A stretch of 64,000 nucleotides of DNA, taken from the NCBI GenBank assembly GCA_021324685.1, contig JAJPIQ010000005.1, positions 124,001 to 188,000 of the forward strand, in the 5' to 3' direction. The position numbers were made by a program, and so were the translations under genes. The first letter of the stretch is position 1. Each line of letters opens with the position of its first letter. This document shows positions 2,171 through 9,757 of this stretch, in pieces. The notes under the pieces were generated by a model. The model was not told where the DNA came from. It saw only the letters and a program-made list of their open reading frames with translations, and did no database searches. Source of the DNA: Bacteroidota bacterium. Lineage in GTDB: Bacteria > Bacteroidota > Ignavibacteria > Palsa-1295.

Positions 2171-3175
2171 CTACCCTTGTAACGCTGTAATCGCGATCAT
2201 GTTCACAATATCGCTCACGCTCGCACCCCGCGAAAGGTCGTTCATGGGGCGGCGCAGGCCTTGCAAAATCGGTCCGATGGCTTCGCCCATGCCAAGCCGT
2301 TCTGCAATTTTGTAACCGATGTTTCCTGCATCGAGATTCGGAAAAATAAACACGTTCGCTCGACCGGCAACCGTGCTCTCCTTTGCCTTGCGGGCCGCGA
2401 CCGTCGGAATGAACGCGGCATCGAACTGAAGTTCGCCGTCGATGGCCAGCGATGGAGCTTTTTTGCGAACGGCCGATACGGCCTGAGCCATCTTTTCGGT
2501 CGAGTCGGAATGCGCGCTGCCAAGCGTAGAATAGGAAAGCATTGCAACATAAGGCTCATTGCCCGTCAGTTCTCGGTACGTCGATGCCGTTGAAATTGCA
2601 ATATCCGCAGCCTGTTCAAGGGTTGGATCGACAACGACCGCAGCATCGGCAAATGCAATAGAAAACTCATGCTCGCGAAAACCGACGACAGGTGGCAACG
2701 CCAGCAGGAACATACTGGAAAGTACGGAAATCCCATCGGCGAGGCCGATACCTTTTAAGGCAGCGCGGATCACATCTGCGGTCGTCGAAAGCGAACCGGC
2801 TACCATTCCATCGACCGATCCGCCAGCCACGAGTGCGGCACCAAAAAGAAGTTCGTTCGAACGCAACTCGCTTCGAGCTTCCCCCAGAGAGCTTAGCTTC
2901 GATCTCCGCCGCTTATAATACTCCTGCGCAAGCAGTTCGGTATCGGCATAGGTCTCGGACGATAGTATTTCGATCCCCGAAATGGAAAGGCCAAGACGGG
3001 CGGCTTCTCGTTCTAAAAGTTCGCGGTCCCCGATGAGAACGATCTCCGCTAAATGTGCATCCGTGGCTTCGAAGGCAGCCCGGAGCACTCGTTCATCGAA
3101 CGCATCTCCTAAAGCTATTCTTTTTTTCGCTTTAGCCGCTTTCGCACGAATTTCCTGAAGAACTTTTGGCGACAT
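2171..3175 (-). CDS. pta: Phosphate acetyltransferase (short, catalytic domain only)
   Basis: A 334-residue PTA/PTB-family enzyme that interconverts acetyl-CoA + phosphate and acetyl phosphate + CoA. The length corresponds to the single-domain Pta, without the N-terminal DRTGG and P-loop regions of E. coli Pta. Recognisable family blocks are GSVDGMVAGSLSTTADVIRAAL, the YVAMLSYSTLGSA stretch and the C-terminal NVFIFPNLDAGNIGYKI segment. The start codon overlaps the stop of the HEAT-cyclophilin gene (TGATG). No ackA is visible in the window. A phosphate butyryltransferase cannot be excluded, but the N(L)DAGNIGYK block favours Pta. Confidence 0.92.
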   Translation of the reverse strand: MSPKVLQEIRAKAAKAKKRIALGDAFDERVLRAAFEATDAHLAEIVLIGDRELLEREAARLGLSISGIEILSSETYADTELLAQEYYKRRRSKLSSLGEARSELRSNELLFGAALVAGGSVDGMVAGSLSTTADVIRAALKGIGLADGISVLSSMFLLALPPVVGFREHEFSIAFADAAVVVDPTLEQAADIAISTASTYRELTGNEPYVAMLSYSTLGSAHSDSTEKMAQAVSAVRKKAPSLAIDGELQFDAAFIPTVAARKAKESTVAGRANVFIFPNLDAGNIGYKIAERLGMGEAIGPILQGLRRPMNDLSRGASVSDIVNMIAITALQG

Positions 3176-5301
3176 CAGCGAAAAGGGATTACCGTGTCAA
3201 CGCGGTCTCCGACGATCTTATTGAAGACCTCGTCCATTCCGCTCGTTACATCGGCCCAGATCGTATAATGGGCATCCAAATGCGGGGTGGGAGATTCGGT
3301 AATGAACCACTGGGAACCCTCTGTGTCCTTCCCATCGCTCGCCATTCCGAGCATTCCTTCGCGGTCGTACTCCTCCGGAGTAAACTCGCTGCGGATCGAA
3401 TATCCCGGGCCGCCCCAGCCGGTGCCCGTCGGATCTCCGGTCTGTATGACAAAATTCGGAACGACGCGATGAACGACGTTCCCGGAAAAATACTGCTTTC
3501 GGGCGAGCTGCACCATATTGAGTACCGTTAGCGGAGCTTCATACGTATGCAACCGAACGATAACGGACCCATGGATGAAATTGATAATCGTTCTTGGCGG
3601 AATACTTTCGATCGCGTCCCAATCGATCTTACTATATCGAAGGTTTCGTTTCGGGAGCCGGACGGAAGGTCCTTCTATGCGCCGAAGGGAGGAAGAAATC
3701 GAGTCCAGCACTTCACGATCGAACCAGCCATTTGCAGAGTCGTATGCAATATGAAGATTTTTTGCGGCTGTTTCAGAGCGGTCATCGAGCCACGAATCGG
3801 CCTCGACCGCGGAAAGAAGTTCGTCGCGATATTGGTGCTGCGAGAACATTAAGATATATTTTGCGACGTATTCGCGAGCCTCGGCCTTAAACGCACTGTC
3901 CCGCACAATACTGGTATCCTGCAGATGGGAAAGGGCGGTACAATCGACGGCGGCATCCTGAACGGCATCGCTGATATGGATCAGGAGATGGCGGTAAAGA
4001 TCCGCCGTTTTATTCGCCTCCAATTGCGCTCGAAATGAGGGCTCATGCTTCGCTCGCTGCCACATACTGTCCAGGGCATCGAGCCGCACGACCTGTTCGA
4101 CGGGCCCGACGGCGGCCATCGTTTCGACGATCGCACTGAAATACGTTGTATCCGAGAGCGTGGAAGCCGCTCGGACGGCGATATTTCGAATGATGGGATC
4201 GTTATATTGCCCATAATTTTGCAGCGCAACAAAAAGCGTCGGCGTCTTAAGCCGCGCGGCCGATATCGTGAGTTCGCAGGCGACCATCGGTGCGATCTCT
4301 TCATTTCGCCCATCGGTGCCGTTGAACCCGTCGAGCCAGTTCCGAAGATCGTTGGAATCCGAAGCGGCAAGCGTTCCGCTCGTCACAAAATGATCGACCA
4401 TCTCCGCCGCCGTGAGGCCGATCTGGATCGCAATCGTACTGTCTCGAACCGCATTGGAAACGGCAAGGCCGGCCGTCTCGATGATGGCGGAATCGGCGCG
4501 TGGGAATTGTTTTAAAGCGTTTAGGATATTGACACGGACCCGCCAGTCCTCTTCTCCTCGATACGCTTCGTTCAAAGCTTTTTCTGCGCGTACATCGTGC
4601 AGCGTGCCCATCGCCGAGGCGCCGAACATTCGCACGTACGGCGATCCCTGGTCGAGGAGCAAATCTTTAAGGAGTGCGAAGCGATTGCCCAGATCGGCCG
4701 AATCGCCCGATCGGGCAAACGCATAGGCGGCCCTCCAGCGAACATTGGGATCGCTATTGTTTGCCAGGGCACTCACGTTTTCCATCGCTTTGGAATCGAT
4801 CTCTTTATGCAATGCACAAACGACATACACCTTTGCTTCTGCGAGCGGGTCGATCGCGTTTCGATCGACGAGCGACTGAATAGCTTTAAGCATCGCGGCC
4901 TCCATTCCCCTGGGCGCCGTCCGGACCATCGCGATCAGCCGTTCTGCGGTCGGATGACGGTTCGAAGCCTCGATAAGACCTTCGCATATTTTTGCATTCG
5001 GTCCCAATAGCCCCAGAGAAAAAGCTTCTGCGTCCGCGACCGTATCGCGCGACTCGCCCTGGAGCGATTTTAAAAGTTCCGCCCGAACGGTCGTATCGCC
5101 CATGTTCCCGAGTGCCACCGCTGCTCTTCGGGCCACGCGAATATCGTCTGACGAAAGATAGGGCAGCAGGCTGTCTGCATTGCGGCGTTCGTCCGCAATG
5201 GTAATAATGCGCCGTTCGTCGGGTGAAAACGTAACTTGCGCCCGCACGTTCTGACCAACGAGCGAGCAGAGAATCAGGAGCGAAGACAGGGTGTGCTTCA
5301 T
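3175..5301 (-). CDS. Exported HEAT-repeat protein fused to a cyclophilin-type peptidyl-prolyl isomerase
   Basis: A protein of 708 residues with an N-terminal signal peptide (MKHTLSSLLILCSLVGQNVRAQ). Residues about 35-400 form HEAT-like helical repeats (units such as ARRAAVALGNMGD, VRWRAAYAFARSGD, VRMFGASAMGTLHD). Residues about 550-705 are a cyclophilin domain: HRVVPNFVIQTGDPTG holds the catalytic Arg of the HR(V/I)(V/I)P motif, followed by GSQWFITESPTPHLD and the YTIWADV strand. It should isomerise X-Pro bonds in the periplasm, with the HEAT part binding clients. It is first in the pta-surE-ftsX-sdh operon. The Trp/Phe positions lining the human CypA pocket are partly changed (QFF to QWF). 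Confidence 0.85.
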   Translation of the reverse strand: MKHTLSSLLILCSLVGQNVRAQVTFSPDERRIITIADERRNADSLLPYLSSDDIRVARRAAVALGNMGDTTVRAELLKSLQGESRDTVADAEAFSLGLLGPNAKICEGLIEASNRHPTAERLIAMVRTAPRGMEAAMLKAIQSLVDRNAIDPLAEAKVYVVCALHKEIDSKAMENVSALANNSDPNVRWRAAYAFARSGDSADLGNRFALLKDLLLDQGSPYVRMFGASAMGTLHDVRAEKALNEAYRGEEDWRVRVNILNALKQFPRADSAIIETAGLAVSNAVRDSTIAIQIGLTAAEMVDHFVTSGTLAASDSNDLRNWLDGFNGTDGRNEEIAPMVACELTISAARLKTPTLFVALQNYGQYNDPIIRNIAVRAASTLSDTTYFSAIVETMAAVGPVEQVVRLDALDSMWQRAKHEPSFRAQLEANKTADLYRHLLIHISDAVQDAAVDCTALSHLQDTSIVRDSAFKAEAREYVAKYILMFSQHQYRDELLSAVEADSWLDDRSETAAKNLHIAYDSANGWFDREVLDSISSSLRRIEGPSVRLPKRNLRYSKIDWDAIESIPPRTIINFIHGSVIVRLHTYEAPLTVLNMVQLARKQYFSGNVVHRVVPNFVIQTGDPTGTGWGGPGYSIRSEFTPEEYDREGMLGMASDGKDTEGSQWFITESPTPHLDAHYTIWADVTSGMDEVFNKIVGDRVDTVIPFR

Positions 5302-5493: not shown

Positions 5494-6612
5494 ATGCGTG
5501 TAGGACTTTTAGCCAACATCAAACCACAGATTCAAAATCAAGCTCCTCGCAAACCGGATGAATCGAAGCGAAGCCGGTCCTTACCTCGGACGGCCACATT
5601 CTCGGCATCGTATAATGATATTTATGCAGAATGGGATGCTCCCGAAACGATCGAAGCTGTGCGCCTGGCCCTCGAATCGCACCCCGACGTCGAAGTAGAA
5701 GTGATCGAAGCCGTTCCTGATCGCGCCATCGACCGCCTACTGATCAAGGATTTTGACATTGTTTTTAATCTGGCAGAAGGATTTACCGGTTCCGCGCGGG
5801 AAGCGCAGTTCCCAGCTCTGCTCGAAATGCTCGAGATCCCATATACGGGCTCAGGCCCGCTCTCGCTTGCAATTGCGCTCGATAAAGCACGCACGAAAGA
5901 AATACTTTCGTATCATGGGATTCCGGTTGCGCGCTTTATCACCTCCGACGTTCCCATTACCTCGATTCGCGCATTATTGCCGGGGACCGATTTCCCTTTT
6001 ATCGTGAAGCCAATCTCGGAAGGCTCTTCGAAAGGAATTCGGAATTCTTCTTTTGTAACGAGCCTGGACGCCATGAACCGCGAGATCGAACGCATTGCAA
6101 TGGAATACCATCAGCCGGCACTCATCGAAGAGTTCTTGCCCGGGCGTGAGTTTACCGTGGCCGTGCTCGGCACCGGAGATAAAGCTCGGATCCTCCCGAT
6201 CGTCGAAATCAATTTTGGCGAATTACCGCCCGAAGCGAACAATATTTATTCGTTTGAAGCGAAGTGGATCTACGATGTCGCAGAGAAGCCACTCAACATT
6301 TTTACATGTCCGGCCGATATTTCTTCAAAATTGCAGGATGAAATAGAAACGGTCGTTCTTCGCGCTTATGAAGTGCTTGAATGTCGCGACTGGGCACGGA
6401 TCGATGTGCGGCTCGATTCCCGTGGCCGTGCCAATATCATTGAAATCAACCCTCTGCCCGGAATTCTTCCCAACCCCGAAGAAAATTCATGTTATCCGAA
6501 AGCCGCTCGGGCGGCCGGCCTTACGTATGAAGCCATGCTCCTTTCCGTTTTGAAATCCGGATGCGAGCGATATGGTATTCCATTTAAGTTTGAACCCAAA
6601 CACGCAAAATAG
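5494..6612 (+). CDS. ATP-grasp ligase, D-Ala-D-Ala ligase-like (first of tandem pair)
   Basis: A 372-residue ATP-grasp protein of the Ddl superfamily. PYTGSGPLSLAIALDKA (about 116-132) matches the Ddl region that ends with the conserved Asp-Lys. FIVKPISEGSSKGI (169-182) is the ATP-binding P-loop-like segment, and IIEINPLPGIL (315-325) carries the Mg-binding Glu and Asn. The N-terminal HGxxGEDG block of true Ddl is replaced by LAEGFTGSAREAQF, and the usual E-x-N-T-x-P-G reads EINPLPG. It therefore probably joins an amino acid or carboxylate other than D-Ala. Residues 15-50 hold an unusual basic insertion (KRSRSLPR). It begins a plus-strand cluster with a paralogous ligase, a GNAT and KamA. A true peptidoglycan Ddl is less likely. 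Confidence 0.82.
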   Translation: MRVGLLANIKPQIQNQAPRKPDESKRSRSLPRTATFSASYNDIYAEWDAPETIEAVRLALESHPDVEVEVIEAVPDRAIDRLLIKDFDIVFNLAEGFTGSAREAQFPALLEMLEIPYTGSGPLSLAIALDKARTKEILSYHGIPVARFITSDVPITSIRALLPGTDFPFIVKPISEGSSKGIRNSSFVTSLDAMNREIERIAMEYHQPALIEEFLPGREFTVAVLGTGDKARILPIVEINFGELPPEANNIYSFEAKWIYDVAEKPLNIFTCPADISSKLQDEIETVVLRAYEVLECRDWARIDVRLDSRGRANIIEINPLPGILPNPEENSCYPKAARAAGLTYEAMLLSVLKSGCERYGIPFKFEPKHAK

Positions 6613-6671: not shown

Positions 6672-7733
6672 TTGAAAGTAGCAGTTATTTACAACGAGCC
6701 CCGGAATACCGCCGCCGAAGACCATTGGCTTCGGCGTTCGGATGCCAATTATCATCCTCCTTCCGCCGGATTTATAGATGCCTCGGAGCACGGCGTGTTG
6801 CTGCAAATGCGTTCGATCGCGACCGCGCTCGAAGTGCAGGGACACGATGTCAATATTTTTAGTGTCGACGATAATCCGAAGCGGCTCTGCTCGTTTCTCT
6901 CCAGTGAACGGCCGAATGTTATCTTCAATTGCTGCGAAGCGATCATGGGCGAATCGAAGCTCGAATCCCACGTCGCCGCGATGTATGAACTGTTTGGAAT
7001 TCCATACACTGGTTCGGGACCTCTTACTTTAGCCCTGGCGCTCGATAAAGCATTGGCAAAGTCCGTTTTCGAAGCTAATAAAATTCCTACCCCTAAACAT
7101 CAGCTATATAAGGATTCAGATTCGATCGATACACACCTTCACTTTCCTTTGATCGTAAAACCCGTTCATGAGGATGCAAGCATCGGGATCGATGCGAATG
7201 CTATCGTTCACGACGAAAATTCTTTACAACGCCGAGTAAAATTTATTCAAAAGGAATTCGATCAGCCCGCCTTGGTGGAAGAATTTATCGACGGTCGAGA
7301 ATTAAACGTCGCCGTGCTTCAAACGTCTAACGGATTGTTCGAAACGCTTCCAATTTCGGAGATTACATTCGATACGATGCCGAAAGGAATGCCGCGAATT
7401 GTAAGTTACGAAGCGAAATGGATCGAAGAATCGCCAATCTATCGTACGACCGTACCCGTCTGCCCTGCGGAACTGCCCGCCCGTATCGAGTCGCACGCCC
7501 GGGCGATCGCGCTTCAGGCAGCGGAAGCGGTCGGGCTCCGCGATTATGGGCGCGTCGATCTTCGTTTAGACGAACATGGTAATCTTTTTGTGCTCGAAGC
7601 GAATCCAAATCCCGACATCAGCGAAGACGCCGGCTTTATACGAGCGGCACTCGCGAGCGGGCGAACGTTCGCTGGCACAATAAATGAGATTCTTCTTTCC
7701 GCCATCGAACGATGGCAGGAAGGTGTGCGTTGA
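6672..7733 (+). CDS. ATP-grasp ligase, D-Ala-D-Ala ligase-like (second of tandem pair)
   Basis: A 353-residue paralogue of the preceding gene. It shares PYTGSGPLTLALALDKA (111-127), PLIVKPVHEDASIGI (159-173), ALVEEFIDGREL (200-211) and the metal-binding block VLEANPNPDIS (307-317). E309 and N311 keep the Mg ligands, but the P-G of Ddl is replaced by P-D. The N-terminal region reads FNCCEAIMGESKLESH in place of the Ddl HGxxGEDG motif, so substrate choice should differ both from Ddl and from its neighbour. The start is an in-frame TTG at 6672, and MKVAVIYNEP fits the first beta strand of the fold. It is probably cotranscribed with its paralogue across a hairpin-bearing spacer of 59 bases. Confidence 0.8.
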   Translation: MKVAVIYNEPRNTAAEDHWLRRSDANYHPPSAGFIDASEHGVLLQMRSIATALEVQGHDVNIFSVDDNPKRLCSFLSSERPNVIFNCCEAIMGESKLESHVAAMYELFGIPYTGSGPLTLALALDKALAKSVFEANKIPTPKHQLYKDSDSIDTHLHFPLIVKPVHEDASIGIDANAIVHDENSLQRRVKFIQKEFDQPALVEEFIDGRELNVAVLQTSNGLFETLPISEITFDTMPKGMPRIVSYEAKWIEESPIYRTTVPVCPAELPARIESHARAIALQAAEAVGLRDYGRVDLRLDEHGNLFVLEANPNPDISEDAGFIRAALASGRTFAGTINEILLSAIERWQEGVR

Positions 7734-7787: not shown

Positions 7788-8255
7788 ATGATACGTGAGT
7801 TGCACAAAGACGATCGTGAGGATCTCCTTCGTATGCTTCGCGCGACGAAAAATTTTTCGGAAGCCGAGATCGCGATCGCGGCAGAGCTCATTGACATCTG
7901 TATCGAAAAGCCGGAGCAGAACGATTATTATGCGTTCGTAGCAACCGTCGGTGAGCAACCCGCGGGATTTTTATTGGTCGGTCCAACCCCGGCTACCGCA
8001 GGGACATACGACATGTACTGGATCGCCGTCCATCCCGACTATCAGGGGCGGGGGATTGCGCAGGACTTAGATGCCTTCGCCGTCCGGTTTGTGAAGGAGC
8101 GCGGAGGATACCAGCTTATCGCTGAGACCAGCAGCCAGCCCGGTTACGAACGGACGCGAGCGTTTTACGTCAAGCAAGGATATCAGCAGTTCGCACGAAT
8201 CGCGGACTACTATAAACTCGGGGATGATTTGATCGTCTTTGGCAAGAGAGTTTGA
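7788..8255 (+). CDS. GNAT-family N-acetyltransferase
   Basis: A 155-residue GNAT enzyme (acetyl-CoA-dependent N-acylation). The acceptor-loop strand MYWIAVHPDYQGRGIAQDLD (82-101) contains the acetyl-CoA pyrophosphate-binding Q-G-R-G-I-A signature, and FYVKQGYQQFARIADYYK (127-144) is the usual C-terminal helix-strand. It lies 54 bases after the second ATP-grasp gene and 291 bases before kamA. In methanogens a GNAT (AblB) acetylates beta-lysine made by a KamA homologue (AblA). By analogy this enzyme may act on a beta-lysine derivative; that is inference. Confidence 0.85.
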   Translation: MIRELHKDDREDLLRMLRATKNFSEAEIAIAAELIDICIEKPEQNDYYAFVATVGEQPAGFLLVGPTPATAGTYDMYWIAVHPDYQGRGIAQDLDAFAVRFVKERGGYQLIAETSSQPGYERTRAFYVKQGYQQFARIADYYKLGDDLIVFGKRV

Positions 8256-8379: not shown

Positions 8380-8546
8380 GCAAATGGAAACTCGGTCGTG
8401 AAAACGGTCGTGGAACCAAAGTCATCGAAAAAAACCGGTGGCGCATCGCAGCCGCGATTTGTGCAGCGCGATGTAAATGTATCAATTCACAACGGATCGT
8501 GCGTGCTGGGAGGCCGGCCGCAATGGTCTGAACAAATCACTTATTT

Positions 8547-9698
8547 ATGGAATACTGGCAGGAGCTGCTTCGCAAATCGATAGAGTCGAAAGACGAGATC
8601 ATCTCTCAATTCGATATCAAACCGGAAGTCGCCGAGCAACTCAATGACTTCTTTCAAACTCGCGTAAACCCTTATTATCTTTCGCTCATTCGGTACAAAG
8701 GAGATCCCATCTGGCTCCAGTGTGTGCCGGACGAAAAAGAACTCGCCGACCTCGATGCGCCGGACGATCCTCTGAATGAGGACGCGATGTCGCCCGTGCC
8801 GTCGATCACTCATCGATACCCGGACCGCGTACTCTTTCTGGTCACGAGCCAATGCTCGATGTATTGCCGTTTCTGCACGCGAAAGCGGAAAGTTGGCGAT
8901 TCGTCGAAGATCTCGATGAAGTACATTCAGGGCGGTCTCGATTATATCGCGGCGCATCCCGAAATTCGAGACGTGATCCTTTCCGGTGGCGACCCGCTCA
9001 CGCTCACGGACTTTATGCTCGAGAAGATCCTAAAAGGATTGCGCGAAATTCCGCATGTAGAGATCATTCGCCTCGGGACCAAGGTCCCGTGTGTACTTCC
9101 GCAGCGTATTACACCGGAGCTCTGCGAGATGGTTAAGAAGTATCATCCGATCTACGTCAATACACACTTCAACCATCCCTGGGAATGTACGCCGGAGGCA
9201 AAGCAAGCGTGTGAAATGCTCGCCAATGCCGGATGTCCGGTCGGAAACCAGATGGTGCTGATGAAAGGCGTCAACGACGATCCTGCCGTCGTAAAGGAAC
9301 TGATGCAAAAGTTGCTTGCGATGAGGGTGCGGCCGTATTATATCTATCAGGCCGATATCACGAAAGGCGCAAACCACTTCCGTACACCGGTGAAAGTCGG
9401 ACTCGAGATTATGGAGAAGCTTCGCGGCTGGACTTCCGGCCTTGCGATCCCCTACTACGTGATCGATGCACCCGGCGGCGGCGGAAAAATCCCGATGCTG
9501 CCCAATTACGTCGTCAGTCACGACGAAAAGAACTGGGTGCTGCGTAATTATAAGTACGACATCTATACGTATCCCGATGTCGTTGAAGAGGAAAAGCCGA
9601 CCAAGGCTCCTGCTCGCAAACGACCCGTCCGCGCACCGCGCGCTCCGAGGAAGAAGAAAGTGTTCAACAAATCCGATTCCGGACCGGAATTACACTGA
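8547..9698 (+). CDS. kamA: Lysine 2,3-aminomutase (KamA, radical SAM)
   Basis: A 383-residue radical-SAM, PLP-dependent aminomutase converting L-lysine to L-beta-lysine. The [4Fe-4S] motif CSMYCRFC supplies C103, C107 and C110. PGGGGK gives the PLP lysine K314. D270 (YQAD) and D307 (VIDAPG) match Asp293 and Asp330 of the Clostridium enzyme, the residues that bind the lysine epsilon-amino group and that glutamate 2,3-aminomutases replace with Lys/Asn. Spacing between them (37) and to K314 (7) is identical. This favours free lysine as substrate over the EpmB-type EF-P role. The C-terminus (350-371) is an unusual Lys/Arg/Pro-rich tail. It closes the ATP-grasp/GNAT cluster and is followed by a strong terminator. 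Confidence 0.93.
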   Translation: MEYWQELLRKSIESKDEIISQFDIKPEVAEQLNDFFQTRVNPYYLSLIRYKGDPIWLQCVPDEKELADLDAPDDPLNEDAMSPVPSITHRYPDRVLFLVTSQCSMYCRFCTRKRKVGDSSKISMKYIQGGLDYIAAHPEIRDVILSGGDPLTLTDFMLEKILKGLREIPHVEIIRLGTKVPCVLPQRITPELCEMVKKYHPIYVNTHFNHPWECTPEAKQACEMLANAGCPVGNQMVLMKGVNDDPAVVKELMQKLLAMRVRPYYIYQADITKGANHFRTPVKVGLEIMEKLRGWTSGLAIPYYVIDAPGGGGKIPMLPNYVVSHDEKNWVLRNYKYDIYTYPDVVEEEKPTKAPARKRPVRAPRAPRKKKVFNKSDSGPELH

Positions 9699-9722
9699 TT
9701 CTTTTTCTGATTCGCTAATTTG

Positions 9723-9757
9723 AAGGGACATGCTGAGAGGTGTGTCCCTTTTTATTT
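9723..9757 (+). terminator. Rho-independent terminator after kamA
   Basis: AAGGGACA (9723-9730) pairs with TGTCCCTT (9743-9750) around a 12-nt loop, and is followed by TTTATTT. It lies 24 bases after the kamA stop. Confidence 0.85.

Follow-up and report, generated by a model that had tools for sequence, protein, structure and literature searches.

A lysine 2,3-aminomutase, an acetyltransferase and two Ddl-like ATP-grasp ligases form a conserved module in bacteria and archaea

In the window, by which we mean the whole stretch of 64,000 nucleotides of a Bacteroidota genome that was analysed here, two neighboring genes encode ATP-grasp ligases that resemble D-alanine–D-alanine ligase (Ddl), and they are followed by genes for a GNAT N-acetyltransferase and for KamA, a radical SAM/PLP enzyme of the lysine 2,3-aminomutase type. 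These four genes make up a module that is real, ancient, shared by bacteria and archaea and, as far as our searches go, undescribed; the kinds of enzyme are known, and their combination is new. What might two such ligases be doing beside a lysine aminomutase? We are highly confident that the ligases (here ATPG1 and ATPG2), GNAT and KamA act in one pathway, and we give an even chance to a particular and undescribed four-enzyme route, predicted from sequence, in which KamA would supply beta-lysine, the ligases would make amide bonds, and GNAT would acetylate, to give a small N-acetylated beta-lysine peptide. The first-pass annotation of this DNA had considered only the ligases, leaving out GNAT and KamA, which are the strongest clue to function.

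The locus and its distribution

All four genes lie on the forward strand. ATPG1 (5494–6612; 372 amino acids) begins with ATG, and ATPG2 (6672–7733; 353 amino acids) begins with TTG, a start that agrees with those of close relatives, whose proteins have the same MKVA.IYNE beginning. Each ligase has a Pfam match to Dala_Dala_lig_C, GNAT (7788–8255; 155 amino acids) matches Acetyltransf_7 and Acetyltransf_1, and KamA (8547–9698; 383 amino acids) matches LAM_C and Radical_SAM. A terminator-like stem-loop, by consensus match only, stands 3' of KamA at 9722–9751 (forward strand); the region holds 11 such stem-loops against a shuffled mean of 6.1, and its promoter-like sites are at chance level (3 against a shuffled mean of 4.4). 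With 291 bases between GNAT and KamA, a single transcript is no more than a possibility in the window. Where the surroundings of the module were scanned, they held varied genes, chiefly housekeeping. MFS-type genes lie near KamA and ATPG1 in Tritonobacter (L134) and in a Spirochaetales MAG (L135, where the end of the contig truncates the copy, which scores below the Pfam cut-off), and these two have no mutual match at E 1e-3. Upstream of the window's ligases, on the opposite strand, positions 3175–5301 encode a 708-residue protein, whose likely counterpart at another locus (L035, 2473–4611) has HEAT repeats and a cyclophilin domain.

How regularly do the four genes keep company? Both ligases are present in 30 of 41 genomes (the window's own and 40 relatives). 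In 28 of the 30 they sit side by side on one contig, in two they are on different contigs, and in all 30 KamA lies on the contig of ATPG2 within about 3.4 kb of it. KamA occurs in three of the 11 pair-less genomes, at 56–58% identity, the very three in which AblB is over its cut-off. The association of KamA with the pair has a Fisher p of 1.7e-6, uncorrected for kinship and with G009, a genome that is 67% complete and in which absence is therefore weak, counted as pair-less. GNAT, sought at 1e-20 in 40 chosen genomes, was found in 20. Within the window's phylum these include 13 of 13 pair-bearing genomes (seven relatives from among the 30 and six genomes with scattered genes) and none of 12 pair-less ones, with G045, which is absent from the 47 listed ATPG2-like matches, counted as pair-less. 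Beyond that phylum they include G273, G274 and five of six genomes of G274's phylum; the sixth, G307, has KamA and no GNAT at 1e-20, and the single ligase examined there (L155) belongs, by its residues, with another group of ligases. All four genes were found in each of the six scattered-gene genomes (five of one family and one of another). A tree or residues served to distinguish the ligases of G109, G162 and G166 and one of the two in G117, and score alone those of G155 and G263 and the other one in G117. In wider samples, ATPG2-like matches at E 1e-50 or better occur in 47 of 247 genomes of the phylum sample, and matches at 1e-60 occur in 38 of 198 genomes of G274's phylum and 7 of 194 of G275's, counts that include other ligase subfamilies.

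The module is also joined and divided in ways that differ between lineages. In the spirochaete phylum, L149 and L151 have all four genes in a row or nearly so. In Thermoplasmatota, KamA is fused to ATPG1 at two loci (L136 and L138) and ATPG2 to GNAT at three (L136, L137 and L038). The module is not invariant: the archaeal loci L140 and L141 have KamA, ATPG1 and a 305-residue ATPG2 that, judged by its length, is too short to include a GNAT domain. The archaeal GNAT domain belongs to another subfamily, with Acetyltransf_3 as its best Pfam match, and the bacterial model finds nothing at 1e-20 in seven genomes of this archaeal phylum; the acetyltransferase thus seems to have been recruited twice. 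In Tritonobacter and in the Spirochaetales MAG, ATPG2 and GNAT (L036 and L037) lie apart from KamA and ATPG1 (L134 and L135), and one might take this separation, together with a related Thioflavicoccus ligase (L083) whose neighbors include KamA and also genes of the 2,3-diaminopropionate type, to mean that the ligases and GNAT form one pathway to which KamA is only loosely coupled, perhaps by way of an amino acid that has nothing to do with beta-lysine. We regard this as improbable, given that both of those genomes carry the KamA–ATPG1 pair elsewhere, that KamA and ATPG1 can be a single protein and that KamA is present in every one of the 30 pair-bearing genomes. In Tritonobacter, a 449-residue protein encoded between ATPG2 and GNAT (L036, 7686–9035) weakly resembles MurL epimerase, with an E of 3.7e-4 and a score well under the cut-off.

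KamA, GNAT and the known users of beta-lysine

The window's KamA matches the lysine 2,3-aminomutase 2a5h at E 6.3e-117, and all 32 sequences compared have C125, C129, C132, R134, D293, D330 and the PLP lysine Lys337, Asp293 and Asp330 being residues that we take to mark lysine, rather than glutamate, as the substrate. It passes the cut-off of the KamA subfamily model TIGR00238 (298.7 against 199.2) and falls below those of the AblA equivalog TIGR03820, still its best aminomutase model (466.5 against 525.4), and of EpmB (223.0 against 369.3). The nearest solved chain to the window's GNAT is 2r7h (E 2e-24), presumably of Desulfovibrio, which by the title of its entry is a GNAT-family protein and a putative D-alanine N-acetyltransferase.

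An aminomutase of the KamA type together with a GNAT recalls the AblA–AblB system (TIGR03820/TIGR03827), whose product is N-epsilon-acetyl-beta-lysine, but in the module described here the GNAT is short and of a different subfamily, there are two ligases in addition and AblB is missing. The AblB model (cut-off 205.1) has no match to the window's GNAT at 0.001, and only one of 17 GNAT members matches it, at 4.9e-4. The window's own genome has no AblB at 1e-10, and we reject the classical AblB route there. AblB over its cut-off is found in none of the 30 pair-bearing genomes and only in three KamA genomes, which themselves lack the ligase pair. EpmA (TIGR00462) is over its cut-off in none of the 41 genomes. 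Because AblB and EpmA are missing in this way, the enzymes encoded beside KamA are likely to be the users of its product.

Could the beta-lysine instead be attached to a protein, in the way that EpmB and EpmA modify EF-P? There is some precedent, in that enterobacterial KamA relatives serve EpmA and that RimK is one of the ATP-grasp enzymes by which proteins are modified, and the EpmB–EpmA system resembles ours in that a KamA-family aminomutase provides beta-lysine for an ATP-dependent ligation. EpmA, however, has a tRNA-synthetase fold, whereas the ligases here are ATP-grasp enzymes with compact, Ddl-sized folds, and two ligases with an acetyltransferase suit a small molecule better; the low EpmB score of KamA also speaks against attachment to a protein, which we consider very unlikely. 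Modification of EF-P by EpmA itself we reject on the count of EpmA across the 41 genomes.

The ligases and their altered substrate ends

In both window ligases, the ATP-grasp fold of Ddl and its ATP and Mg residues are present. AlphaFold models have mean pLDDT values of 89.7 for ATPG2 and 81.7 for ATPG1, and the best solved chains among the matches listed align with Z 34.6 and rmsd 2.1 over 294 residues (ATPG2) and with Z 31.7 and rmsd 2.5 over 292 (ATPG1); every match listed by Foldseek and VIA-align for either ligase is of the Ddl/Van type. Carnosine-synthase-like ligases are absent among the matches listed for both, by sequence and by fold. L-amino acid ligases of the BacD/BL00235 type, which also synthesize dipeptides with an ATP-grasp fold, give no more than a weak sequence match (3vot, E 2.4e-5 for ATPG2), far below Ddl.

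Are these, then, simply Ddl? The best-scoring models for both ligase groups are those of D-Ala-D-Ala ligase, but on NF002378 (cut-off 243 bits) ATPG1 scores 180.1 and ATPG2 161.7, against 324.8 for the genome's own Ddl, and on TIGR01205 (cut-off 245.65) the three score 157.1, 136.7 and 290.4. Since the Ddl cut-offs are missed and the genome's real Ddl is encoded on another contig (contig 49, L001), neither window ligase is a canonical Ddl. The cut-offs of the Van-type NCBIfam models, at 495–775 bits, lie much further off: the best Van-type scores among the 25 top families listed are 104.1 for ATPG1 (VanG) and 81.6 for ATPG2 (D_ala_D_lac).

The phylogeny agrees. Canonical Ddl sequences form one clade, with 14 rows and support of 100 in a large tree (cut to 100 rows, with 16 dropped) and with nine rows and support of 100/100 in a smaller tree of 52 chosen rows, and both window ligases lie outside it, not inside, where they would have to be for the first-pass annotation to be refuted; this is in keeping with the two paralogues of differing substrate ends that the annotation had described. 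In the smaller tree, ATPG1 is a clade of 20 rows (98/93) drawn from the class of the window, from a further family in the same phylum, from spirochaetes and Thermoplasmatota and from an Auribacterota MAG; in the 100-row tree, it has 30 rows at a support of 95, including one archaeal ligase of other context and one S58 fusion. Both ligase types are found in the spirochaetes, in the Auribacterota MAG and in the archaea. A constraint that joined ATPG1 and ATPG2 of the window's family (six rows) was rejected with a p-AU of 1.85e-62, and this, with the span of the ATPG1 clade across phyla and domains, indicates that the tandem arrangement was inherited and is not a recent copy. The two are 31.6% identical over 342 aligned positions, about as close to each other as to the Ddl of this genome, to which ATPG1 is identical at 32.6% of 298 positions and ATPG2 at 32.1% of 296. 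Thus, the tandem duplication does not survive as a recent event; by sequence, the duplication that separated ATPG1 from ATPG2 is ancient.

One might still suppose that these are cell-wall ligases of shifted specificity (D-Ala-D-Ala, D-Ala-D-Lac or D-Ser). Fold and family would fit, but the missed cut-offs, the position outside the Ddl clade, the loss of Tyr216 described below and the linkage to KamA and GNAT do not, nor does the presence of the ligases in Thermoplasmatota, which are not known to have murein. We consider the idea largely refuted, with barely any chance of being right, and we have rejected both specific identities, canonical Ddl (scores, clade and a real Ddl elsewhere in the genome) and Van-type ligase (scores far under the curated cut-offs, and again the clade).

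Where the ligases depart from Ddl can be seen in an alignment of 116 rows, comprising 14 canonical Ddl, 33 ATPG1, 37 ATPG2, 16 of a third paralogue and 16 others outside these four named groups (fusions, rhizobial and Thioflavicoccus ligases and other spirochaete or archaeal ligases). We use the numbering of Escherichia coli DdlB, and some groups contain rows from closely related genomes. Across the 100 rows of the named groups, K97, K144, E180, E187, D257 and N272 are identical, K215 and R255 are unchanged and position 270 is always Glu or Asp. The first-pass annotation was, therefore, right that the ATP and Mg residues are intact in both ligases, and the residues that it quoted are exact: in ATPG1, the EINPLPG loop (E317–G323; 6442–6462 on the forward strand, by arithmetic from the start of the open reading frame), at the Mg and oxyanion end, begins at E317 and includes N319, and in ATPG2, the corresponding EANPNPD (E309–D315; 7596–7616, forward strand) begins at E309 and includes N311.

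At the substrate positions of DdlB, the picture is different. Tyr216, present in 14 of 14 Ddl, is Trp in 37 of 37 ATPG2 and in 29 of 33 ATPG1 (Ala in two, Glu in two). At Ser150, ATPG1 has Ser (29) or Thr (4) and ATPG2 has Ala (34) or Gly (3). Gly276 is kept in 33 of 33 ATPG1 and is Asp in 25 of 37 ATPG2, a change that is not universal (Cys 7, Gly 3, Ser 1, Trp 1). Ser281 is likewise kept in 33 of 33 ATPG1, whereas ATPG2 has Ala (20), Ser (11), Gly (3), Thr (2) or Cys (1), and in place of Leu282 ATPG1 has Cys (21), Arg (6), Asp (4) or Ser (2) and ATPG2 has Gly (36) or Leu (1). A pattern that extends across whole clades in this way is not due to chance. The window's ATPG1 keeps S178, K257, R302, G323 and S332 and has W258 for Tyr216 and C333 for Leu282; its ATPG2 has A169 (codon at 7176–7178, forward strand), W250, D315, A320 and G321 at Ser150, Tyr216, Gly276, Ser281 and Leu282.

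The Glu15–Ser150–Tyr216 triad of canonical Ddl is, therefore, incomplete in both, through Trp at position 216 and, in ATPG2, through the loss of Ser150 as well. Glu15, presumably the contact for the first D-Ala, is probably kept in ATPG1 as E46, in 33 of 33 rows by MAFFT, an assignment that hangs on MAFFT, since hhalign left the N-terminal part of ATPG1 unaligned and another MAFFT alignment has gaps at this position in most rows of both ligases. In ATPG2, MAFFT places it at E39 (Glu in 26 of 37), and hhalign, one residue off, at S38. With Glu15 probably in place in ATPG1, the changes concern mainly Tyr216, Ser150 and the second-substrate end. In other words, the first-pass annotation was correct in that the substrate positions differ from those of Ddl and between the two ligases, and it went too far in assigning the divergence simply to the site of the first D-Ala. 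What remains of Ddl is the fold (PF07478), the ATP and Mg residues, Lys215 and Arg255; what differs is Trp for Tyr216, the second-substrate end, the clade, the scores and the neighbors.

The remodeling of ATPG2 allows another reading, that only one ligase makes a peptide bond to beta-lysine and that the other amidates the acid with ammonia or another amine, yielding N-acetyl-beta-lysine amide or a dipeptide amide. ATPG2 does lack the DdlB residues of the second-substrate end at Ser281, Leu282 and Gly276, and L147 and L154 have KamA, a single ATPG2-type ligase and GNAT without an ATPG1 alongside. Against this, ATPG2 keeps K215 and R255 in 37 of 37 rows and the full Ddl fold, and nothing indicates ammonia; we think this reading unlikely, if still worth bearing in mind.

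Several other ligases of this wider family deserve mention. A third paralogue (L039, 7143–8225, on contig 64 of G000; 360 amino acids) arose from within ATPG2, has Trp, Gly and Asn at the positions of Tyr216, Ser150 and Gly276 and has no KamA or GNAT adjoining. Long open reading frames of ~640–710 codons (L095, 5996–7939; L096; L097; L145; L146) carry a Ddl-like ligase at the C-terminal end and form their own clade; the scan of one of them, L095, identified its N-terminal part as a methyltransferase. As a control on the link between KamA and the pair, G253, G191, G044 and G285, in which only the long fused ligase was seen, have no KamA at 1e-30, and G324, another such genome, carries a KamA at 43% identity. 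In the phylum of the Spirochaetales MAG, a single open reading frame (L152, 6332–8488) encodes an ATPG1-side ligase and a peptidase S58 domain as one fused protein and adjoins a histone-deacetylase-like amidohydrolase (8475–9485). The S58 family includes beta-aminopeptidases, so L152 may be a related pair for synthesis and breakdown. By annotation, a plasmid of Thioflavicoccus mobilis (L083, 4557–10038) encodes a diaminobutyrate transaminase, SbnA, an ornithine-cyclodeaminase-like protein and a Ddl-like ligase, followed by KamA on the other strand. Rhizobial plasmids (L080, L081, L082) have Ddl-like ATP-grasp genes in a separate clade, two of the three with Tyr at position 216. Two Neisseria records of 2.17 Mb labelled as plasmids (NZ_CP119142.1 and NZ_CP119140.1) are chromosome-like in size.

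A putative beta-lysine peptide pathway

The make-up of the module, its ancestry, the kept and altered residues, the fusions and the co-occurrence are observed. What we infer is each reaction, the order of the reactions, which amino acids are the partners, what is made and what it is used for, and the scheme would run as follows. KamA would convert L-lysine to L-beta-lysine. ATPG1, which has kept the oxyanion and carboxylate end of Ddl, would join this product to another amino acid in an amide bond formed by way of an acyl-phosphate. ATPG2, with its acceptor end rebuilt, would carry out a second ligation or an amidation, and GNAT would acetylate an amine of the peptide. The pathway would end in a small N-acetylated beta-lysine peptide that might act as a compatible solute, although use as an osmolyte is only an analogy, drawn from the likeness to AblA–AblB. 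The first-pass annotation had suggested two consecutive ligations or different acceptors for the two ligases, a sensible reading that is strengthened by the conservation of the four-gene module. A bolder proposal, to which we give somewhat less than an even chance, is that this undescribed, cross-domain pathway makes N-acetylated beta-lysine oligopeptides by means of two dedicated Ddl-like ligases, that it replaces AblA–AblB where it is present and that its product serves as a stress solute or a signal.

No description of the four-gene module was found in the open-access literature searched, subscription journals lying mostly outside that search, and the excerpts of PMC3543383, in which ablA/ablB are proposed for N-epsilon-acetyl-beta-lysine, mention neither "ATP-grasp" nor "alanine ligase." Because D-Ala-D-Ala ligase models score best for both ligase groups, both risk being filed as Ddl. 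Here is a separate branch of ligases kept in bacteria and archaea alike in the company of a lysine aminomutase and, at most loci seen, of an acetyltransferase, and if our reading of it is true, the name of a cell-wall enzyme would have hidden a whole pathway and its metabolite from view.
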